Positions 197 to 58,601 of a DNA stretch of 64,000 nucleotides are shown piece after piece. The stretch comes from Salinilacihabitans rarus (GTDB lineage Archaea; Halobacteriota; Halobacteria; Halobacteriales; Natrialbaceae). The notes beneath the pieces were generated by a model. That model worked only from the letters and a program-made list of their open reading frames with translations. It made no database searches and was not told the origin of the DNA. Location of the stretch: positions 2,418,001 to 2,482,000 of the forward strand of contig NZ_CP100762.1 in NCBI RefSeq assembly GCF_024296665.1. The letters run 5' to 3'. The translations under genes and the position numbers were made by a program. Numbering within the stretch: the first letter of the stretch is position 1; each line of letters opens with the position of its first letter.

Positions 197-958
197 TCAC
201 TCGACTTTCTCGCCCGCCGGAATCGCCACGTCGAGCCAGTTCTCCTCGGGCGGCAGCGGGCAGTCGAACGTCTCGCTGTAGGCGCAAAACGGCGAGTACG
301 CGAGGTTGAAGTCGAGGACGATCTCGTCGCCGTCCTCGAGGTCGCGCTCGGGGGCCAGTTCCATGTACCGCCCGCCCTCGTAGGTCTGCTGGCCCGTCGT
401 CTTGTCCCGGAACGGGACGAAGAGCGGTTCGTCGCTGCCGGGTCGCTGCTGGTAGGCGTGGAGGTCGAACGTCCCGTCGGTCAGGTCGTCGTCCTCGCGC
501 TCCAGTTCGAACGAGAACGTCGCGACCCGCAGGTAGCGGACCACGCGGCCCGCCGTGGTGTCCATCGTCACCGGGTCCGCCTCGGTGTCGTCCTCGCGGT
601 CACCTTCGGTTCGCGCTGCGGTGTCGTCCTCGCGGTCACCTTCGGTTCGCGCTGCGGTGTCGTCCTCGCGGTCACCTTCGGTTCGCGCTGCGGTGTCGTC
701 CTCGCGGTCACCTTCGGTTCGCGCTGCGGTGTCGTCCTCGCGGTCACCTCCGGTTCGGGCTGCGGCGTCGTCCGGGAGTGAAACGGTCGCGGTCACGCGG
801 TAGTCGGGGTCCGGCGGGAAGTACGCGAGGCCGTCGAAGTCGTCGCGCTCCTCGGGCGGGATCGGCGACTGAGGGTGGCTCGCGAAGAACTCGTCTTTCT
901 CGGCGCGCTTCTCCTCGAGTTCCTCGTGCCAGCGGTCGACGTCGACGTCGTCGGTCAT
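197..958 (-). CDS. DUF1684 family protein with an internal 12-residue tandem repeat
   Basis: The protein has 253 residues. The DUF1684 hallmark is at the C-terminus: an FCAYS segment followed by CPLPPEEN and IPAGEK near residues 225-252. The N-terminal part (residues 1-62) also fits the family, whose members are cytosolic proteins of unknown function. Residues 65-124 are five copies of a 12-residue acidic unit (DDTAARTEGDRE), four identical and the fifth slightly diverged. They sit between two conserved parts of the domain, where I would expect only a short loop. The unit length keeps the frame whatever the copy number. Family assignment is firm; the role is unknown. Confidence 0.85.
   Translation of the reverse strand: MTDDVDVDRWHEELEEKRAEKDEFFASHPQSPIPPEERDDFDGLAYFPPDPDYRVTATVSLPDDAAARTGGDREDDTAARTEGDREDDTAARTEGDREDDTAARTEGDREDDTAARTEGDREDDTEADPVTMDTTAGRVVRYLRVATFSFELEREDDDLTDGTFDLHAYQQRPGSDEPLFVPFRDKTTGQQTYEGGRYMELAPERDLEDGDEIVLDFNLAYSPFCAYSETFDCPLPPEENWLDVAIPAGEKVE
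587..766. repeat. 36-bp tandem repeat, five copies, inside the DUF1684 gene
   Basis: Five head-to-tail 36-bp units beginning GTCGTCCTCGCGGTCACC on the plus strand. The first four appear identical and the fifth differs at three positions; a partial sixth (GTCGTCC) follows. The copies abut with no spacers, so this is not a CRISPR array. Near-identity suggests recent expansion by slippage or unequal recombination. Confidence 0.95.
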
Positions 959-25562: not shown

Positions 25563-26042
25563 ATGAGCCAGCGCGAGCACGACGAGGCGGCGTACATGGA
25601 GTTGCCGCCGGACGCGTGGCACCAGACCGAGGAGGGCAACTACTACGTCGACTGCCCGGAGTGTGGGTCGGCGGCGACGCTGACGAACGTCGTCACGCAC
25701 GGCCGCTGTAACGGCTACCTCGACCAGCGCGAGGACGAGACCGAACTCGACGAGGAGGCGATGGACTGCACCGCGAAGCTCTGGTTCGAACTCGGCTACG
25801 TCTCCGACCCCGACGGGACGACGACCGACGGGGCCGTCGGCGAGTCGGCGGGCGAGGACGAGGCCGCGGCGCGAGCGGAGGGCGACCGCGAGGACGACAC
25901 CGTCGGCCGGGACCGGCCGCCGGGGACCGACGGCACGGTCGAGGACGCGGGACCGGAGGCGGGGACCGGCACGCGGGACGAGGACGAGAACGTCGCCGGC
26001 CCCGCCTCGGAGGAGGCCGAGGATTCGAGCGCCGGCCACTGA
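25563..26042 (+). CDS. Zinc-binding DUF7093-like protein with an acidic tail
   Basis: A 159-residue protein. Residues 20-85 contain CPECGSAATL, then single cysteines at GRC and DC, enough for one zinc site. The last 70 residues are low-complexity and acidic. The tail includes ARAEGDREDDT near residue 103, which is almost identical to the 12-residue unit repeated in the DUF1684 protein at the start of the window. The DUF7093 label is from memory. Confidence 0.7.
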   Translation: MSQREHDEAAYMELPPDAWHQTEEGNYYVDCPECGSAATLTNVVTHGRCNGYLDQREDETELDEEAMDCTAKLWFELGYVSDPDGTTTDGAVGESAGEDEAAARAEGDREDDTVGRDRPPGTDGTVEDAGPEAGTGTRDEDENVAGPASEEAEDSSAGH

Positions 26043-47663: not shown

Positions 47664-49007
47664 TCAGTCGCTCCGGGACAGTTCCCGTTCGGGCGACTCG
47701 TACTCGGGGAGGTGGCGGTGACAGAAACTGGTCCGCCCGGACTCGCTGACGTGGTGGTGGTCGGGCGTCTCGACGTCACAGACGCTGTCGAACTCGGCGT
47801 TGAGGTACTCCAGCGCCCGCTCGTCCTCGCCGACCTCCATCGCCTCGAACACCTCCTCGAGGTGGCGATCGATCTCCGACGGGACGTCGAGGTCGCCGAA
47901 CAGCTCCCCGCGGACGGCCTCGACGTTCTCGAAGCGGGTGTCCTTCCCGCGCCACTCCTTGATCCGTTCGAGGACCGTCAACTCGGCGCGCTCGCGTTCT
48001 TCGAGGACGACCCGCAGGAGGATCAGCGCCTCCCAGAGTTCGTCGTCTATCCCCTCGTACCCTTCGGGTTTGATCTTGGCCGGACAGCGGGTGCTGAACG
48101 GACACCCGGAGGGCGGGTCGCGCGGGCTCGGCGGCGTCCCGTGGAGGATGATCCGGTCGTGATCGGCCGTGGGGTCCGGGTCGGGGATCGCCGACAGCAG
48201 CGCGTGGGTGTAGGGGTTGGCCGGGTTCTGGAAGAGCTCCTCGGTCGGTCCGATCTCGAGGACGTTCCCGAGGTACATCACGGCCACCCGGTCGCAGATG
48301 TGCCGGACGACGCTCAGGTCGTGGGCGATGAACAGGTACGTGAGGCCGAACTCGTCCTGGAGGTCCTCAAGCAGGTTGAGCACCTTCGCCTGGACGGAGA
48401 CGTCGAGCGCGCTCGTCGGCTCGTCGAGGACGACGAAATCCGGTTCGAGCGCGAGCGCCCGCGCGATGCCGACGCGCTGGCGCTGGCCCCCGGAGAACTG
48501 GTGGGGGTAGCGGTAGTAGTGCTCGCGCTGGAGGCCGACCGTCTCGAGCAGTTCGCGCACGCGCTGGCGGCGCTCGCGCGGGGTCTTCCACTCGTGGACG
48601 TCGAGCGGCTCGCGGACGATCTCCCCGACGGTCATCCGGTCGTTGAGGCTGGACTGGGGGTCCTGGAAGACCATCTGGGAGTTTCGCCGCCACTTCTTCA
48701 GTTCGGCCCCGCTGAGGGTCGTCACGTCGGTGCCGTCGAACAGCACCTCGCCCTCGGTCGCCTGTTCGAGCTGGATGAGCGTCCGCCCGAGGGTCGTCTT
48801 CCCGCAGCCGGACTCGCCGACGAGCCCGAGGGTCTCACCGCGGCGGATGTCGAAGTTGACGCCGTCGACGGCTTTCACCGGCTTGCCGCCGAACAGCCCG
48901 TCGCCCTCGTAGTAGGTCTTGAGGTCGCGGACCTCGACCAGCGTCTCGCCCAGTTCCTCGTCGCGATCGGGGGCGACGGCCTCCGAGCCGGTTACCTCGC
49001 CGCTCAT
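47664..49007 (-). CDS. dppF: Dipeptide/oligopeptide ABC transporter ATPase, DppF type (locus 1)
   Basis: A 447-residue ATPase. Walker A is GESGCGKTT near residue 64, the Q-loop is [10 protein letters not shown], the signature is FSGGQRQR and Walker B is [12 protein letters not shown]. The oligopeptide C-terminal domain begins [11 protein letters not shown] near residue 312. About 90 residues of helical sequence then intervene before [12 protein letters not shown], so the domain is split compared with the usual compact cysteine motif. The start overlaps dppD by four bases. It energises the permease pair of this operon. Confidence 0.9.
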
Positions 49008-50377
49008 CGGCGCTCACCCCCGTCGCCGCCGATGCGGTCGTGGTGTTCGATCCGCTCGACTTTCCCTTCGTCCTCGGGGTAGAGGAGACACGCCGCCACG
49101 TGCTCGTCCTCGCCGGTTCGCACCGGGACCGGTTCGGGGTGGACGTGCAGACACTCCTCGAACTGTTCCGGACACCGCGGCGCGAACCGGCAGTGGGTCG
49201 CCGGCTCGTTCGGCGTCGGCACGTCGCCCTCGATCGTCGACAGCCGTTCGCGCCCGACCTGGTGGCCGGGGATCGATTCGAGCAGTCCCCGCGTGTAGGG
49301 GTGTGCCGGCTCGCCGAACAGCGTCTCGACGTCGGCGGTCTCGACCACTTCGCCGGCGTACATGACGTTGACGCGGTCGGACACCTCGGCGATGACGCCC
49401 ATGTCGTGGGTGATGAACATGATCGAGAGATCCCGTTCCGCCTGCAGTTCCGCGAGCAACTCGAGGATCTGCGCCTGAATCGTCACGTCCAGCGCGGTCG
49501 TCGGCTCGTCGCAGATGAGCAACTCGGGGTCACAGGCGAGCGCCATCGCGATCACCGCGCGCTGGCGCATCCCGCCGGAGAACTGGTGGGGGTACTCCTT
49601 GAGGCGGCGCCGGGCGTCGGGGATGCCGACGGCTTCGAGCAACTCGACGGCCTCCTGGGTGGCGTCGCTGCCGGTGAGCCCCTGGTGGAGCTTCAGCGCC
49701 TCTTTGATCTGGTTCCCGACCGTGTAGACCGGGTTGAGGCTCGTCAGCGGGTCCTGGAACACCATCGCGATGTTCCCCCCGCGGAGGCGACGCAGCGGCT
49801 TCCCGCTGGTTCGGGTCACCTCGACGTAGCCGCTGACGGGGACGCGCTCGCCGCCGTCGCGGCCGTACTCCTCGACGAAGACGAAGTCGTCCTCGTCGAC
49901 CAGTCCGAGGCGCTCGCCGTAGCCGGCGTCGATGACGTCCTTGACGGTGATCTCGTCGCGCGACGGCGGCGACTCGCCCGCCTCGGCGAACTCCTCGACC
50001 GACGCGTCGACCTCGGGGTCGTCGAACAGGTCCGAGGGGTCGTACGACTCCCGGAGGTCCGTCAGGTCGACGGTCCGGCCGGGGTAGTCGGCGGCGAACT
50101 GCCTGACCGTCTCGAGGTGGCGAAACCGGACGCTGCTGCCGTCGAGCACCCGGCCGGGGGACTCGACCAGCCCCATGATCGAGCGGGCGGTGACGCTCTT
50201 GCCCGACCCGCTCTCGCCGACGATGCCGACGGTCTCGCCGACGTCGATCTCGAAGTTGACGCCGTCGACGGCCCGGATCGTCTCCTTGTCCGTGAAGAAC
50301 GCCGTCCGGAGGTTGCGAACCGACAACAGCGGCTCGTTCCGGCCGACGGCCTCCTCGCGGGCGGCTTCGGCGGCCAT
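49004..50377 (-). CDS. dppD: Dipeptide/oligopeptide ABC transporter ATPase, DppD type (locus 1)
   Basis: A 457-residue ATPase. Walker A is GESGSGKS (residues 54-61) and the Q-loop glutamine is Q208 ([12 protein letters not shown]). The distance between them is about 148 residues, roughly 90-100 more than usual, and the excess (about 90-195) is acidic and looks like an inserted segment. The signature is FSGGMRQR and Walker B is [12 protein letters not shown]. The C-terminal [14 protein letters not shown] motif is compact, unlike in DppF. The start overlaps dppC by one base. Confidence 0.9.
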
Positions 50378-52098
50378 CAGCCACCACCCCCGGTGGCGGC
50401 GGCGCCACCAGCGGCCTCGCTACCGCCCTCGCTCTCGGGGTCGATCGCGTCGCGGATGCCGTCACCCAGCGCGTTGAACCCCGTCACGACCAGCACGACG
50501 AGGATCCCCGGCAGCGTGGAGATGTGCCAGGAGGCCGTCGAGACGTACGACCGCCCCTCGTAGACCGCGCGCCCCCACTCGGGGGTCGGCGCCTCGACGC
50601 CGAGGCCGAGGAACGAGAGGGCCGCGACGCCGATGATGACGCCGCCGAGCGACAGCGACGCGTAGACGAGCATGTAGCCGGCGATGTACGGCGACATGTG
50701 CTTTTGCATCGTCGCCACGGGGCTTTGACCGTAGCTCCGCGCGGCGTCGACCCACTCCTGTCCAGCGATCTGTAGCGCCGGGCCGCGGACCGCACGCCAG
50801 AGCAGCGGCCAGCCCGTCGCCGCGAATATCAGTGCCAAGAGTATCCCCCCGTCGTATATCGTCGCGATCGGATGGTTCGCCTCCTTGAAGACCACCGAGA
50901 GCAACAGGACCAGCAGGAACCGTGGCAACGAGATCACCGAGTCGGCGGTGACGACTGTCACGAGGTCGACCAGCCCCTTGTAGTAGGCGGTGATCAGCGC
51001 GAGCGCGGTCGCCGCGAACGCCATCAGTGCCGTCGCTAACACCCCGATGACGAGTGAGACGCGCGCGCCGTAGGCGACGAACGTGAACAGGTCCTTCCCG
51101 TCCTGATTCGTCCCGAACGGATGGTACCGATCGTACTGGTCGTAGCTCAGCATGCCGACGTTACTGTCGCCACCCTGCGAGCGGGTCATGATGTTGGCCT
51201 CGCCGTGGGTGAGCGTCTGGTAGTCGTCGCCGTCGAGGTGGGTGAACTCGTGTTCGTACGGGCTGTAGATGTTCGCCTCCGCCGTGTACGGGCTCAGCGG
51301 CTGGGCCCACAGCGCCATCACGACGAACATGAAGACGACGAGGAGTCCGAACACCCCCCAGTAGTGGTTGCGCAGGCGATTGATGCTGTCGTCGCGGGGC
51401 GTCCAGTCGGCCTCGCGGTAGTGTTCCCGGAAGATCTCGTAGCCCTTCCAGAGCCAGCCGAGCCAGACGAACGCGTAGGCGTAGATGACCGCCACGCGAA
51501 GCGCCCACGCCCACGCCGGCGAGAGCCCGAACGCGGTGCCCTCCCAGCCGCCGTCGACCGCCCGGTACCCCTCGTTGGGGATCGTCTGGCGGCTGGTCAG
51601 CGTCGGCAGGTCGCTCGCCGCCTCCAGCCCGGCCGCGAGCCGGGCGATGACGGCGTCGACGACGCCGCCGAGCGGCGTCGCGACGACCAACGCGACGAGG
51701 ACGCCGAGCAGGACCGTCACCAGCGCGCGTTCGAGGACGTCCTCGACGCCGGTGCTCGCTTCGATCCCGAGTCGGTCGACGAGCGAGATCGGGACGAACA
51801 GCCACTTGACGACGATCGCCACCAACGCGAGCAACAGCAGCGCCGTCACGAGGAAGCCGACCCACCCGACGACGGAGCCGGCCGACTCCGCGAGCGACGC
51901 CTGCACCTGACTCGGCAGCGTCGCGGTCGTTTCGATCCCGTACCGGGTCGCTCCTGCGACCCGGAGGAAGCCGGCGGCGGCCCGGCCGAACTCGAGGGCG
52001 ACCAGCACCAGTGCCCCGAGGAGCCAGAGCAGCGCCGGCTTCGGGTTCTCGGCGATACGTTCCCGAAGCGTTCTCTCGTCGAATTCGTTCGTACTCAT
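50377..52098 (-). CDS. dppC: Peptide ABC permease DppC with a large N-terminal membrane extension (locus 1)
   Basis: A 573-residue permease. The canonical DppC core begins around residue 275 (PLSPYTAEAN) and includes HPFGTNQDGKDLFTFVAYGA and LSFLGLGVEAPTPEWGR, with EWVDAARSYGQSPVATMQKH as the EAA loop. Before it lie about 250 residues with four or five extra hydrophobic stretches (about 25-45, 75-100, 118-140, 195-220 and 250-272), far longer than usual. The tail is Gly/Ala-rich. It overlaps dppB by four bases (ATGA). Confidence 0.88.
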   Translation of the reverse strand: MSTNEFDERTLRERIAENPKPALLWLLGALVLVALEFGRAAAGFLRVAGATRYGIETTATLPSQVQASLAESAGSVVGWVGFLVTALLLLALVAIVVKWLFVPISLVDRLGIEASTGVEDVLERALVTVLLGVLVALVVATPLGGVVDAVIARLAAGLEAASDLPTLTSRQTIPNEGYRAVDGGWEGTAFGLSPAWAWALRVAVIYAYAFVWLGWLWKGYEIFREHYREADWTPRDDSINRLRNHYWGVFGLLVVFMFVVMALWAQPLSPYTAEANIYSPYEHEFTHLDGDDYQTLTHGEANIMTRSQGGDSNVGMLSYDQYDRYHPFGTNQDGKDLFTFVAYGARVSLVIGVLATALMAFAATALALITAYYKGLVDLVTVVTADSVISLPRFLLVLLLSVVFKEANHPIATIYDGGILLALIFAATGWPLLWRAVRGPALQIAGQEWVDAARSYGQSPVATMQKHMSPYIAGYMLVYASLSLGGVIIGVAALSFLGLGVEAPTPEWGRAVYEGRSYVSTASWHISTLPGILVVLVVTGFNALGDGIRDAIDPESEGGSEAAGGAAATGGGG

Positions 52099-53162
52099 CG
52101 TTCGTACCCCACGCGCGGATCCAGAATCGTGTACAAGATGTCCTGCAGGATGTTGATCGAGACGATCAGCAGGATGAAGACGAACATCAGCGAGCCGACC
52201 ATCGGGAGGTCACCCTGGATCGCCGCCTGAAAGAACAGGTAGCCGATGCCGTTGATGCCGAAGATCACCTCGACGATGACCGACCCGCCGATGAGGACGA
52301 ACGCCTCGTTGGTGATGATCGGCACGAGCGGGACCAGCGCGTTGCGGAACACGTGCTTCCAGACGATCACCCGGTTGGAGACGCCCTTGGCCTTCGCGGT
52401 CTCGACGTAGTTCGAGTTGATCGTCTCGAGGACGGCCGTCCGGCTGATCCGGAGTTCGTTACCCATCAGCGCCGACCCGAGGACGATCGCCGCCGGCGCG
52501 ATCTGCTTGATCGAGGCGGCGAGCGTCGTCGCCGAGAAGTGCAGGCCGGTCGGGATGCTGAGGACCCCGATCGTCGCCCACCCGGTGATGCCGATGAAGT
52601 CCAGCGGCGGCTGGCCGACGATGCTGCTGATGTCGGGCCCGATCGTGTACCAGTCGATCCCGAAGAAGAACTTCTCGGACTGCCGGAGGACCGCAAGCAG
52701 CATGATCGCAAGCCAGAAGTTCGGCATCGCCCGCCAGATGATGCCGCCGAACGAGGCGAGGTAGTCCCCCCAGGTGTTCGGGTTGAGCCCGGCGTAGAAG
52801 CCAAGCGGGATGCCGACGAAGATCGGAATCGTCACCGCCCAGAACCCGAGCCAGAGCGTCCGGGGGGCGTAGGTGCCGAGCAGGCTGTAGACGTCCCGGC
52901 CCGGCTGGATGACCCACGACTGGCCGAGGTCGAACGTGAGGAGACTGACGACGAAGTCGAGGTACTGCTCCCAGAGCGGCCGGTGGAGTCCGAGTCGCCG
53001 TTCGATCTGCACCCGCTGGGCCGGCCCCGACTGCTCGCCGAGGATCGCGGCGACGGGGTCGATCGGCCCCATGCGAACGATGATAAACGTAATCGTAATC
53101 CCGATCAAAACGACCGGAATCGCCAGCAGGAGGCGGCGCAGGAGGTAGCGCCAGCGACTCAT
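52095..53162 (-). CDS. dppB: Peptide ABC permease DppB (locus 1)
   Basis: A 355-residue permease with six hydrophobic segments. It begins YLLRRLLLAIPVVLIGITIT and has ETAKAKGVSNRVIVWKHVFRN, the EAA loop, near residue 247. The end is IVSINILQDILYTILDPRV, as in DppB. It pairs with DppC to form the channel. The start is separated from the dppA stop by 198 bp, so this part of the operon may have its own promoter or be processed separately. Confidence 0.92.
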   Translation of the reverse strand: MSRWRYLLRRLLLAIPVVLIGITITFIIVRMGPIDPVAAILGEQSGPAQRVQIERRLGLHRPLWEQYLDFVVSLLTFDLGQSWVIQPGRDVYSLLGTYAPRTLWLGFWAVTIPIFVGIPLGFYAGLNPNTWGDYLASFGGIIWRAMPNFWLAIMLLAVLRQSEKFFFGIDWYTIGPDISSIVGQPPLDFIGITGWATIGVLSIPTGLHFSATTLAASIKQIAPAAIVLGSALMGNELRISRTAVLETINSNYVETAKAKGVSNRVIVWKHVFRNALVPLVPIITNEAFVLIGGSVIVEVIFGINGIGYLFFQAAIQGDLPMVGSLMFVFILLIVSINILQDILYTILDPRVGYER

Positions 53163-53360
53163 GGCGTTTCACCCGTCCCATTCGTGTGTTTCGCGTGTCG
53201 TACTATCGATTGATCGAGCATTCCTAGATCACAAATTCTACCGTTTTGGGTAGCTCGTTGGTACGCTACGATTGTGTGTGTAGCGCTCTCCAATAAAGGC
53301 AACTATTACGACCGAGCGTATCGCGGGCCTGACCGGTCGGAGACGGCCCTTCGAGGGGGG

Positions 53361-55196
53361 TCAGTTGTTCAGCGAGACTTCGTTGAAGACCTGCTGGTAC
53401 TCGCCCATTGCCCCGAACGGCGCGGCGTCGACGTGGTCGTAGTAGAACTGCTCCATCACCTGGTGGTACAGCGGCATACAGACCATGTCCTCCCAGATGG
53501 CCTCCTCCATCTCGACGTAGGCCTCGTTGCGGACGTCCTCCGCGTCGGGCTCGGGGTTGTCGACGACGGTCTCCCAGGCCTCCTGGGCCTTCTGCGAGGC
53601 GTCGGAGTCCGCCTCGTCCCAGTCGAGGTAGTAGCCGTTGGTCTCCTCGGGCATCCGGGAGGTGTCGGTGTTCTCCGGTTCGAAGCCGAACATCCCGTAG
53701 CCGGGGTCGGGCCAGCTCCAGGTCCAGCCCAGCGAGTAGAACTGCAGCTCACCGTTCTGGCCGCGTTCGATGAGCGTCGAGAACGGCGACTCCTCGAGTT
53801 CGAGTTCGATGCCGAGCCCGGAGAGCTTGTCGCGGGTGAGGCGACCGAACTCCTGGAACGCGTCGGACTCGTAGGTCGTCAGCGTCAGCTCGTAGGGGTC
53901 GTCCTCGGTGTAGCCCGCATCTTCGAGCACCTCGCGGGCGGAGTCGCGGTCGGTCTCGTTGGCCGCGTAGGGGTAGTCCTGGATGAACTCGTCGCGGGCG
54001 TCGGGACCGCCGGGGAAGACGCCCGGCGGCAGGAAGGTAAACGCCGCCTCGCCGCGCTCCTTGAAGATCTGGGTGATCAGCTCGTCGTGGTTGGTCACGT
54101 ACGCGATCGCCTGTCGGACGGGCCGCGGCGTGTTCGCCGCGTTGAACGCGAGGTAGTACGTGCTCAGCTGCGGGACGCCGACGTAGTCGGCGGTCTCGCC
54201 GTTCTCCATGGGCCCGTAGGTCCCGATCTCGCGGCCGCGGTCGTCGGTCTCGGCGTCGACCAGGCTCGGATCGTACTGGGCGGTCGGCAACGTGAAGATG
54301 TCGAGGCTCCCCTCCATCGCGGCCGTGTACCGCGCTTCGTCGTCTTCGAGGATCTGCCAGTGGACCGCGTCGACGTTCGCGACGCTCCCGTGGTAGTCGT
54401 CGAACCGGGTGACGCGCGCCTCGGCGTCGGGGTTCCAGGTGTCGAACTCGAAGGGACCGGTGCCGACGGGGGCCTCGGTCGAGAACTCGCCCTGGTCGAC
54501 CTCGCCGTCGTACCCCTCGATGTCGCCGACGTACCCTTCGGGGATCACCGCGAACGAGTCGTACGCGAGGATCTCGAGGGCGTTCGGCAGCGGCGTGCCG
54601 ACCGTGAACTCGAGGGTGGTGTCGTCGACGGCCTCGACCGCGAGGCTGTCGGGGACGAGCTCTCCCTCGTCGTCGACTTCGGACTCGATGTTCAGGGCGC
54701 TCGAGTCGTTGGTGATGAAGTTCCCGCGCTCGCTGTTCGGCGACTCGGCCAGCCGCCGCCAGGAGTAGACGAAGTCGTCGGCCGTCATCTCCTCGCCGTT
54801 GTGGAACGTCACGCCCTCTTTCAGCTGGAACGTGTACGTCAGTCCGTCCTCGGAGATCTCGAAGTCCTCGGCGAGGATGGCTTCGACGTCGGTCACCCCG
54901 TCGGGGTAGTGCGCGAGCCCCTCGTACATCTGCAAGACGACCCGCCCCGACGCGGTGTCGGTCGACTGGATCGGGTCCAGCGAGGTCATCGTGGAGTTCT
55001 GGAGGTTGAGGACGTTGTCGTCCGACCCGGACCCGCCGTCCGAGCCGTCCGAGCCGTCAGAGCCGTCCTCGCCGTCCGAGCCGTCAGAGCCGTCGTCACC
55101 GTCGCCGCCGAAACAACCGGCGAGCGCGGCGGCGCCAGCAGCCCCACCAGTCGCCTTCAGAAACCGTCGTCGCTTCAGGGTCGAATCCCGTGGCAT
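53361..55196 (-). CDS. dppA: Peptide ABC transporter substrate-binding lipoprotein DppA (locus 1)
   Basis: A 611-residue extracellular protein. The signal has RRRFLKATGG followed by the lipobox LAGC near residue 27. A long Gly/Ser/Asp tether follows. The SBP_bac_5 domain shows LDPIQSTDTASG, YTFQLKEGVTFHNGEEMTAD and AGYTEDDPYELTL. The ATG at 55196 is favoured over a GTG two codons upstream because GTTAAA lies 25-30 nt before it. It captures peptides for DppBCDF, encoded downstream. Confidence 0.9.
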   Translation of the reverse strand: MPRDSTLKRRRFLKATGGAAGAAALAGCFGGDGDDGSDGSDGEDGSDGSDGSDGGSGSDDNVLNLQNSTMTSLDPIQSTDTASGRVVLQMYEGLAHYPDGVTDVEAILAEDFEISEDGLTYTFQLKEGVTFHNGEEMTADDFVYSWRRLAESPNSERGNFITNDSSALNIESEVDDEGELVPDSLAVEAVDDTTLEFTVGTPLPNALEILAYDSFAVIPEGYVGDIEGYDGEVDQGEFSTEAPVGTGPFEFDTWNPDAEARVTRFDDYHGSVANVDAVHWQILEDDEARYTAAMEGSLDIFTLPTAQYDPSLVDAETDDRGREIGTYGPMENGETADYVGVPQLSTYYLAFNAANTPRPVRQAIAYVTNHDELITQIFKERGEAAFTFLPPGVFPGGPDARDEFIQDYPYAANETDRDSAREVLEDAGYTEDDPYELTLTTYESDAFQEFGRLTRDKLSGLGIELELEESPFSTLIERGQNGELQFYSLGWTWSWPDPGYGMFGFEPENTDTSRMPEETNGYYLDWDEADSDASQKAQEAWETVVDNPEPDAEDVRNEAYVEMEEAIWEDMVCMPLYHQVMEQFYYDHVDAAPFGAMGEYQQVFNEVSLNN

Positions 55197-55220
55197 ACTC
55201 ACACACTCGAAGAGCTCTAT

Positions 55221-55226
55221 GTTAAA
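55221..55226 (-). promoter_or_regulatory. TATA-like box for dppA (locus 1)
   Basis: GTTAAA on the plus strand (TTTAAC on the minus strand), 25-30 nt before the ATG at 55196. A 10-bp palindrome, ATCAATTGAT (55236-55245), lies just upstream of it. Confidence 0.5.
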
Positions 55227-55277
55227 GCTAACGTTATCAATTGATTATACGAGTTGCTGAAATTCAGTCTAACTATA

Positions 55278-55308
55278 GTCACTCGTCCAATATAATATTA
55301 TGAGTGAC
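55278..55308. promoter_or_regulatory. Inverted repeat upstream of dppA (locus 1)
   Basis: GTCACTC and GAGTGAC flank a 17-base AT-rich core containing AATATT-like sequence, about 80-110 bp upstream of the dppA start. It could be an operator for a peptide- or nitrogen-responsive regulator. Confidence 0.45.
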
Positions 55309-55486
55309 AATCTTCGGTGAAAGTCCCGAAATAATGACTCTAAGGCACTCTATCTGGTAAAAACGTCTTTACCGTGTTCGAACGTTTCCGACCCGAATCT
55401 GACGACATTACTTTAATTTATCTATCAATGTACGCACCAATATCCCGGTGGGATCGGGCACGCGTAGTTGCCGGTTCTGGCACGGG

Positions 55487-55492
55487 TTTATA
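55487..55492 (+). promoter_or_regulatory. TATA-like box for the DUF7974-like gene
   Basis: TTTATA 73 nt before the ATG at 55565; the message would carry a leader of about 45 nt. Confidence 0.5.
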
Positions 55493-55564
55493 CGTAGCGG
55501 GTCGCCCCGCTCGCCGAGCGAGGACCCCCACCGCTTTCGGGGGTCGCGTCGTCGGTACCGATGG

Positions 55565-56047
55565 ATGCCCGCCCGAACGGACGACGGGACGGACCGGCCG
55601 CTCCTCGCGGCCGACCGGTACTCCCTGACGGCGCTCGTCGGCGCGTTCGTGCCCGCCGCCCTCGCGCGACGGGCCGTCTCGGTCTCGGTCGAGACCGACC
55701 GCGACTCGTACGCCGTCGGCGACCCGGTCGAGGTGTCGGTTACGTTCCGCAATCGGCTCCCGGTTCCGGTCGCCGTCCCCACGCCCGAACGTCGGCTGTG
55801 GGGGTGGTGTGTCGGCGGCGAACTCGAGGCCAGCGACGAGCGCCGGTACACGCGGCCCGAACCCGCCGAGTTCGCGTTCCGTCCCGGCGAAACCAAGCGC
55901 GTCACGTTCGTCTGGAGCGGCCGCTTCGAGCGCACCGGCGACGACCACGAGTCGGTGCTCCCGGACCCCGGCGAGTACGAGATCGCGGCGTTCGTCGCCA
56001 CCGCGGACCGGCGGCCGCGGGACGCGACGACCGTCACCCTCCGCTGA
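55565..56047 (+). CDS. DUF7974-like beta-rich protein
   Basis: A 160-residue protein. Residues 40-160 look like an immunoglobulin-like beta domain, with RDSYAVGDPVEVSVTFRNRL and FRPGETKRVTFVWSGRFE, similar to haloarchaeal DUF7974, which is recalled rather than searched. A membrane-like stretch (about 20-38) may anchor it. It separates the two dpp operons and points the opposite way. A role in peptide uptake is only positional. Confidence 0.7.
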   Translation: MPARTDDGTDRPLLAADRYSLTALVGAFVPAALARRAVSVSVETDRDSYAVGDPVEVSVTFRNRLPVPVAVPTPERRLWGWCVGGELEASDERRYTRPEPAEFAFRPGETKRVTFVWSGRFERTGDDHESVLPDPGEYEIAAFVATADRRPRDATTVTLR

Positions 56048-56063
56048 TACACGACCAGCGGTA

Positions 56064-57443
56064 TCAGTCGTCGGCCGTCATCGGTTCGTCGCGGTTGAGG
56101 TGACAGGCCGCGAAGTGCCGTCCCTCGCCGTACGCCGTCTCGACCTCGTAGGCCGGTTCCTCCCGGGCGCAGATGCTCCGCTCGGCGAACGCCTCCGTGA
56201 GCAAGGCGACGGCCTCCTTCCACGCCTCGGTCTCCGCGCTCTCGTCCGGCCGCTCCTCGCGGGGCCCGTCGACCGCGACGAGGCGGATCGCCTCCTCGAC
56301 GATCTCGCCGGCCTCGCCGTCGGGCGTCCCGTCCGGGAAGTACTCCCGGCGGATCTCGCTCGCGGGTTTCGCCTCGAACGCGCGCCGGTCGACCGCGCGC
56401 AGGTACGTCCGCGCGTCGTCCCACTCGGCGTCGGTCAGCCCGTACTCCTCGGGCGCGATCAGCTTCGGACACCGCGTCCGGAACCGACAGCCCGACGGCG
56501 GGTCGACCGGGCTCGGCACCTCCCCTTCGAGGACCCCGCGGGTCCCGTCGGATCGGGGGTCCGGGACGGGGATGGACTCCAGCAGCGCCTCCGTGTAGGG
56601 GTGTTGCGGGTTCTCGAACAGTTCCTCTTTCTCCGCGAGTTCGACGATCTTTCCGAGGTACATCACGGCGACCCGGTCGGAGATGTACCGGATGACCGAG
56701 AGGTCGTGGGCGATGAAGAGGTAGGTGAGGCCGAACTCCGCCTGCAGGCGGCGCATCGTGTTCAGCACCTGCGCCTGAATCGAGACGTCCAGCGCCGAGA
56801 CGGGTTCGTCACAGACGATGAAGTCGGGGTCGACCGACAGCGCGCGGGCCAGATTGACGCGCTGGCGCTGGCCGCCGGAGAACGCGTGCGGATAGCGGTT
56901 GTAGTGGCGCGGGTCGAGGCCGACCTTCTCCAGTAACTCCTTCGCGCGGGCCTCGCGGCCCTCGTCGTCGAGCATCCCGTGGGCGCGCATCGGCTCCTCG
57001 ATGATCTGGCCGACTTTCATCCGCGGGTCCAGCGACGACTGGGGGTCCTGGAAGATCATCTGGATCTCCGAGCGCCTCTGCCGGAGGGCCTCGCCGCTCA
57101 GGGCCGCGAGGTCCTCGCCCTTGAAGTAGATGCTCCCGTCGGTCGGTTCGAGCAGCCGCAGGATCGTCCGCCCGAGCGTCGACTTGCCACAGCCGGACTC
57201 CCCGACCAGCCCGAGCGTCTCGCCCTGTTCGACCTCGAAGTTGACGCCGTCGACCGCCTTCACCCGGTCGGCCCCGAGGCTGAACGGCGGGAACCGATCC
57301 GGCTCGACGTTGAACCCGGCGAGCAGCCCCGACTCGGCGTCGAAGTGCTTTCGCAGCCCCTCGACCTCCAGCAGCGTCTCCCCCTCGGGTACCGGCTCGC
57401 CCCGGAGGTCGCCCCACGTGCGGTCGGCGCGCTCGCTACTCAT
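56064..57443 (-). CDS. dppF: Dipeptide/oligopeptide ABC transporter ATPase, DppF type (locus 2)
   Basis: A 459-residue ATPase. Walker A is GESGCGKST, the Q-loop is [10 protein letters not shown], the signature is FSGGQRQR and Walker B is [23 protein letters not shown] marks the C-terminal cysteine domain, again followed by about 90 helical residues before [11 protein letters not shown] 20-residue loop ([20 protein letters not shown]) lies before Walker A. The start overlaps dppD by eight bases. Confidence 0.9.
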
Positions 57444-58599
57444 CGTCACCTCCGTCGCTGAGGCGTTCGGGCTCGGGTTCGGACCCTCCGCCGTCGCCAC
57501 CGCCCCCGACCTCCGCCGTCAGCGTGGGTTCGACGTCGAGCGGGGGGCTCTCGTCGTAGCCGACGTCGAAGGCGTCGTGTTTCACGCAGGCGGCGCGCTG
57601 GGGTTCCTCGCCCGCCCGGTCCACTTCGAGCAGGTCGGGGTGGACCCGCCGGCAGACCTCGTGTGCGTCGGGACAGCGCGGGTGGAACCGACAGCCCGGC
57701 GGCGGGTTGATCGCCTCGGGCATCACGCCCTCGATCGGGTCGAGGTCGTCGACCGTCCGGTCGGGGCGGGGCATCGAGTCGAGCAGCGCCTCGGTGTAGG
57801 GGTGTTTGGTGTCGTAGAACAGTTCGTCGACCGGCGCCTGCTCGACGATCTCGCCGAGGTACATGACGTTGACGCGGTCGCAGATCTCGGCGACGACGCC
57901 CATGTCGTGGGTCACCCAGATGAAACTCGTCCCGTACTTCTCCTGGAGGTCGTCGACGAGGTCGAGGATCTGGCCCTCGACGGTGACGTCGAGGGCCGTC
58001 GTCGGCTCGTCGGCGATGATGAGGCTCGGCTCGCAGGCGAGCGCCATCGCGATCAACACCCGCTGGCGCATCCCGCCGGAGAACTGGTGGGGGTACTCGT
58101 CGTATCGCTCCTCGGGGTCGGGGATGCCGACCTCGCGGAGCATCCGGACCGCCTCGGTCTTCGCCTCCGACGTCGGGAGGCCGCGGTTGAGTTCGATGAA
58201 CTCCCGGAGCTGACCGCCGACGGTGAACACCGGGTTCAGCGACTCCATCGGGTCCTGGAAGATGACGGCGATCTCCCGCCCGCGGATCCGGTCGCGGATC
58301 TCGCGCTCGGAGAGCATGTCGTCGCGCTTGCGCAGTTCGCCGTCCGGCCCCTCCTCGAGGCCGAAGATCGTCTCGCCCCGGTAGGTGATCTCGCCGTCGA
58401 CGATCTCCCCGGGGCTCTCGACCAGCCGCAGGAGGCTCATCGACGCGACGCTCTTGCCCGCGCCGGACTCGCCGACGAGGCCGACGATCTCGCCCTCGCG
58501 GACATCGAAGGAGATGCCGTCGACGGCGCGGACGGTACCGCTCTCGGTGAAGAACTGGGTCTTGAGGTTCTCGACGCGGAGGAGTGGCTCGTCGCTCAT
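57436..58599 (-). CDS. dppD: Dipeptide/oligopeptide ABC transporter ATPase, DppD type (locus 2)
   Basis: A 387-residue ATPase. Walker A is GESGAGKS near residue 43, the Q-loop is [12 protein letters not shown] near 115, the signature is FSGGMRQR and Walker B is [12 protein letters not shown]. The C-terminal domain starts [14 protein letters not shown]. There is no long insert between Walker A and the Q-loop, unlike in locus 1. The tail is acidic and Gly-rich. The start is 2 bp from the dppC stop. Confidence 0.92.
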
Positions 58600-58601
58600 G
58601 G

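Follow-up and report, generated by a model that had tools for sequence, protein, structure and literature searches.

A probable 36-nucleotide DNA element carried in frame by unrelated protein genes of haloarchaea

An acidic peptide common to two proteins of Salinilacihabitans rarus, a DUF1684 protein and a small zinc-ribbon-like protein, most likely marks a haloarchaeal DNA element of about 36 nt that is dispersed within genes, keeps their reading frame and is prone to tandem expansion. A tiny spreading piece of DNA seems to account for the match better than coincidence does. Both genes lie in the window, by which we mean the whole 64,000-nucleotide stretch that was analysed. The sequence-only reading had noticed the peptide in both proteins, and it is present in each, as is the matching DNA. 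The features concerned are as follows.

200..958, minus strand: host gene 1, a DUF1684 protein of 253 aa (PF07920, E=4e-45).
584..763, minus strand: five tandem 36-nt units of 12 codons each (covariance-model matches, E 7e-14 to 8e-10), bounded at 763-728, 727-692, 691-656, 655-620 and 619-584.
770..775, minus strand: host sequence CCGGAC(GAC) on the left of the array, similar to GAGGAC(GAC) at the right end of the element; a presumed microhomology for insertion, from empty DUF1684 sites and host contexts.
25563..26042, plus strand: host gene 2, a small CxxC zinc-ribbon-like protein of 159 aa with an acidic tail.
25852..25902, plus strand: single dispersed copy (model match in the whole genome, E=9e-9).
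25866-25901, plus strand: the 12-codon unit AARAEGDREDDT of that copy, which also has 14 matching upstream bases.

At the shared peptide the zinc protein reads DEAAARAEGDREDDTVG, also given as DEAAARAEGDREDDT. The DNA similarity had been put at 27 of 33 bases by eye; the similarity is real and the figure was too low, since 29 of 33 bases are identical between the zinc copy and the DUF1684 unit over the peptide-coding stretch and 44 of 51 once the upstream flank is included. The ungapped alignment (51 bp, 86%, window 25852-25902 against 583-633) contains a 19-bp exact core, GACCGCGAGGACGACACCG, and reaches 51 bp because the zinc copy goes on upstream into bases equivalent to the end of a preceding unit. 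Using null models drawn from a 400-kb sample of genome stretches, we found that among 1500 36-mers taken at random from the S. rarus genome 1 reached a match of at least 31/36 in the window, and among 1500 acidic-coding 36-mers none did. These controls bear out the earlier judgement that the similarity exceeds chance acidic low complexity.

In an all-against-all comparison of the window, the zinc/DUF1684 pair was the top pair outside ABC-transporter-like paralogs, with a score of 30 against 21 for the next, and very few non-paralogous pairs reached 30 in a 464-kb sample with about fifty times more comparisons. Large internal paralogy was also seen at 48000-58600, the repeated matches reaching 95% over 65 bp; duplicated transporter genes are the presumed cause. 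When a 69-nt two-unit query was run against the 3.62-Mb genome, the array came first and the zinc copy second (59.9 bits, E=2e-10); the best match beyond both loci had 37 bits.

The DUF1684 array opens with a single DDAAARTGGDREDDT and continues with four AARTEGDREDDT; no differences separate units 2-5, and unit 1 has two changes relative to them. Relative to its relatives the protein has a net insert of exactly 60 codons (180 nt, 5x36), LPDD-P-EADPV becoming LPDD-A-[5x12]-EADPV, and the array was found in none of about 110 aligned DUF1684 relatives. Growth of a simple tandem repeat from host sequence by slippage was considered and rejected: the segment is absent at this position in orthologs, and the array unit matches inserts in other genes. 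Residues 69-124 have pLDDT < 50 in the AlphaFold model, which places the array in a predicted disordered loop. Haloquadratum orthologs (L153, L154) carry a different, unrelated acidic insert of about 23-32 residues in the same loop, so this loop accepts insertions repeatedly. A second DUF1684 paralog in the same genome (G000:C1:995540-996061), 49% identical, is without the array.

The second window copy sits in a protein whose zinc-ribbon matches in Pfam are sub-threshold only. Orthologs of this protein were found in 31 of 61 genomes searched. Its copy is no clean 36-nt insert: the orthologs are about 8 residues shorter, and the tail varies anyway.

Genome-wide DNA and covariance-model searches found no third locus in the S. 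rarus genome, the one genome by which its genus is represented in the comparison set. Taken alone this result would favour rejection, because many dispersed copies had been named beforehand as the mark of a spreading element. The relatives gave the opposite answer, with the unit in many unrelated genes. Among 125 genomes of the family (group f1, Natrialbaceae, placed through the closest named DUF1684 relatives), matches stronger than the zinc copy were found in other genera and in other genes. The consensus of the 36-nt unit is ACCGCAGCGCGAGCCGAAGGCGACCGCGAGGACnnC, also written as ACCGCAGCGCGAGCCGAAGGCGACCGCGAGGAC plus one variable codon, and it encodes TAARAEGDREDx. Across haloarchaea we identified at least 11 further unrelated host genes, about 13 with the DUF1684 and zinc proteins, their identities being taken from NCBIfam and Pfam:

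CobJ/CbiH, precorrin-3B methyltransferase: six genomes in four genera.
Trm5/Taw2 methyltransferase: one copy in genome G026, five in G119.
MutS2-like protein: two copies in G067, one in G068.
MutS: G015 and G093.
M32 carboxypeptidase: G118.
Hel308 helicase: family group f6.
Ferredoxin: family group f6.
Lipoate-ligase-like protein: family group f6, four genomes.
GvpL: family group f6.
L15/L18e-like protein: family group f6.
OB-fold protein: family group f6, G290.

One genome (G373) has the unit in three host genes at once. Tandem arrays comprise five units in DUF1684, five in Trm5/Taw2 and two in the MutS2-like gene. In a class-wide sample of 391 genomes, 30 had a match at E<=2e-4, some of these being weak matches that we rejected; in one small genus (g34) the figure was 7 of 10 at E<=1e-3. 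Copy number is 1-6 per genome, low compared with most mobile repeats, and no confident copies were seen outside genes. Model matches of 23-25 bits were discarded as chance, matches at <=25 bits having mixed frames and no common peptide. We did not count as copies the 30-nt tandem arrays of two unrelated genes, TAREDGTTAG x4 in G013 (L214, ~1480-1620) and REDGTAAGHA x3 in G421 (L286, ~1500-1610). They have the 22-nt block CCGCGAGGACGGCACCGCAGCG, or something near it, in common with the 36-nt element, and are possibly a shorter sister family.

Codon choice bears on whether the peptide or the DNA is what these hosts have in common. In an alignment of 22 distinct copies (A1), the arginine at codon 8 is encoded by CGA in 21 and by AGA in one, and GCA accounts for 17 of the 20 alanine codons at codon 6; the GvpL copy, which lies outside A1, has GGA at codon 8. 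In the window genome CGA makes up 10% of arginine codons and GCA 3% of alanine codons, so that with usage taken from this one genome the probabilities of the choices at both codons lie far below any level expected by chance. Peptide convergence is insufficient, because different hosts retain the same rare synonymous codons, GCA and CGA, and by this codon evidence it is descent of the DNA that lies behind the shared peptide.

The sequence-only reading had offered convergence on a useful peptide as one of two explanations, and these conserved codons are what it leaves unexplained. In a more general form, acidic linkers built from few codons would yield DREDD-type peptides and their DNA independently. 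Weak matches are abundant in all genomes, and an unrelated acidic linker of another genus (GDEGDREDDT, in G076), which we set aside as a chance match, agrees with the zinc copy at 26 of 26 bases. Against this, 33-48 nt including the rare CGA and GCA are conserved in about 12 hosts, exact 36-nt indels occur at empty sites, and acidic control 36-mers never matched as well as the observed pair. We therefore regard independent origin as very improbable.

Distances between copies address a narrower possibility, that of one copying event between the zinc and DUF1684 genes, 25 kb apart, followed by amplification in DUF1684. That the genome has only these two loci, and that the 51-bp match has the period of the array, would fit such an exchange. 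Within the 36-nt core, however, 7 differences separate the zinc copy from the DUF1684 unit and 6 separate it from copies in CobJ and M32 genes of other genera, whereas between the DUF1684 unit and CobJ copies there are only 3. These core distances show the two window copies to be separate family members and no special pair. A direct zinc-to-DUF1684 template switch, our first model, was rejected on the same lack of special kinship and on the stronger copies elsewhere, and private exchange in general is hardly probable at all.

Empty sites give the most direct view of insertion. CobJ provided the first clean one and DUF1684 the second. The CobJ gene is 819 bp long in most orthologs and exactly 855 bp in the six carriers, the empty site reading ..ATC CGC GAG GAC GGC TTC.. 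and the filled site ..GTC CGG GAG GAC [GAC ACC GCA GCG CGA GCC GAA GGC GAC CGA GAG GAC] GGC TTC... The comparison of flanks in relatives proposed by the sequence-only reading thus returned an exact 36-nt insert in CobJ and a 5x36-nt insert in DUF1684 against empty orthologs. Of its two explanations, the movement of a short sequence gains from the unrelated genes in other genomes and from the empty CobJ sites; movement to further loci within the S. rarus genome did not appear.

Presence of the unit in CobJ is sporadic for the same gene even inside one genus. On a CobJ tree of 48 genes, with the loop left out, presence needs 5 changes, at least 3 of them forced by well-supported branches. We rely on the forced minimum only, because the tree was a quick build in which several rows were poorly aligned. 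Since several changes are needed, gain or loss of the unit at the CobJ site has happened more than once. Some copies at the same site are nevertheless explicable by inheritance with losses or by transfer of the whole host gene. In another genome (G083, L350), CobJ has a 15-nt insertion, TRADDDHQDGHEQ, at the element site, which may be what is left of a decayed unit or may have arrived independently.

All confident copies share one strand, the coding strand, and one reading frame. The search was made by DNA and was blind to frame, and the weak matches (<=25 bits) with their mixed frames serve as an internal control. Only this one frame gives a net negative peptide; the other five give +1 to +6 per 12 residues. 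Halophilic proteomes are acidic. Purifying selection could therefore leave only the one acidic frame among the copies that survive. In this scheme selection would keep only copies that lie in disordered surface loops and are read in the acidic, halophile-compatible frame, and the element itself would probably have no protein function.

Use of a single frame would also be expected of a functional peptide tag, an acidic peptide useful for solubility, binding or turnover and spread by selection, and DRED is the most constant part of the peptide. Such a tag fits poorly with the sporadic presence in the same gene inside a genus, with the unrelatedness of the hosts and with several synonymous sites that are as constant as non-synonymous ones; we consider it very improbable.

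How this element might move is suggested by its ends. The right end, CGCGAGGAC, is nearly constant across copies, and the left flanks (CGGGAGGAC, GCGGAAGAC, CAGGAAGAC, CTCCCGGAC and CACGACGAT) are host-like but resemble the right end. The core is thus flanked by near-direct repeats, 4-9 of 9 positions being identical, of which the left one is variable; this leaves the precise boundaries of the element, and a target duplication if there is one, loosely defined. A copy, we guess, inserts behind a GAC or GAT codon of the host, in most cases inside a (C)GA(G)GAC sequence similar to its own right end. Insertion would probably proceed by microhomology-mediated template switching or recombination, with a tandem or circular intermediate possible, and the near-direct end repeats would then allow expansion by whole 36-nt units or clean loss. 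These putative steps are offered as a proposal. No enzyme or carrier was found in viral contigs, and plasmids and phages gave only chance-level matches. That a 36-nt selfish DNA spreads through microhomology to its own ends by this candidate route, with the acidic-loop frame of salt-in proteins as its landing pad, is a tentative reading to which we give somewhat less than even weight.

The main alternative for the movement is that a transposase mobilises the unit as a very short MITE-like element, with a palindrome-dependent enzyme of the REP/RAYT or IS200/IS605 type acting in trans. Most copies preserve a hairpin, CGCG-A-GCC-GAA-GGC-GAC-CGCG, that has undergone three independent double changes (ACC/GGT, GGC/GCC, GTC/GAC); the number of doubly changed cells was reached in 0 of 500 shuffles, in which sequence kinship is ignored. 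However, the inner stem has 3 bp, the whole unit is very short at 36 nt, the predicted DNA folds are no better than those of shuffles, and viral, plasmid and phage collections held no carrier. Because the covariation is suggestive and the folding energy ordinary, we do not claim a palindromic element, and transposase mobilisation seems unlikely.

Rickettsia is the best-known setting for repeats inserted in frame into conserved genes, and a haloarchaeal family would show protein-tolerated DNA of this kind arising in another domain. The unit could supply halophilic enzymes with new surface loops. It also carries a warning that short peptides common to unrelated haloarchaeal proteins need not imply a common function. 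Because the host group includes culturable organisms, the mechanism of spreading is testable. A search of Rfam with window positions 450-900 gave no match above the gathering score, and we found no earlier report of the haloarchaeal unit in open-access papers.

Among known repeats, cyanobacterial small dispersed repeats and REP/BIME elements are mostly intergenic and of high copy number. The haloarchaeal unit is like them very short and dispersed, and unlike them intragenic, with 1-6 copies per genome. REP elements are described as very short repeats in the 20-40 nt range (PMC3733652). PARCELs are tandem in-frame coding repeats with dyad symmetry that have spread between genomes, encoding 25-residue amphipathic tracts in ORFs without assigned functions that are often membrane-targeted (PMC2996958). 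The likeness lies in the tandem in-frame coding repeat; the haloarchaeal unit, by contrast, encodes 12 acidic residues with no hydrophobic pattern and lies inside ordinary enzymes. Coding palindromic repeats of Methanocaldococcus jannaschii, fused into protein genes (Suyama et al. 2005, cited in PMC2229807), are also archaeal, from another archaeal class. Rickettsia palindromic elements (RPEs) are in-frame repeats found in many unrelated conserved protein genes, where the extra peptide is tolerated; they are about 100-150 bp long, strongly palindromic and also intergenic (PMC2229807, PMC10969869). The haloarchaeal unit resembles them in lying in frame in unrelated protein genes that have uninserted orthologs. 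It differs in being 36 nt long, at most weakly palindromic and often tandem, and with folds no better than shuffles it does not match the RPE combination of length, long stem-loop and terminal inverted repeats. No other in-frame intragenic repeat family in this comparison is as short, and the nearest known kinds to the unit are RPEs and other small intragenic repeats.
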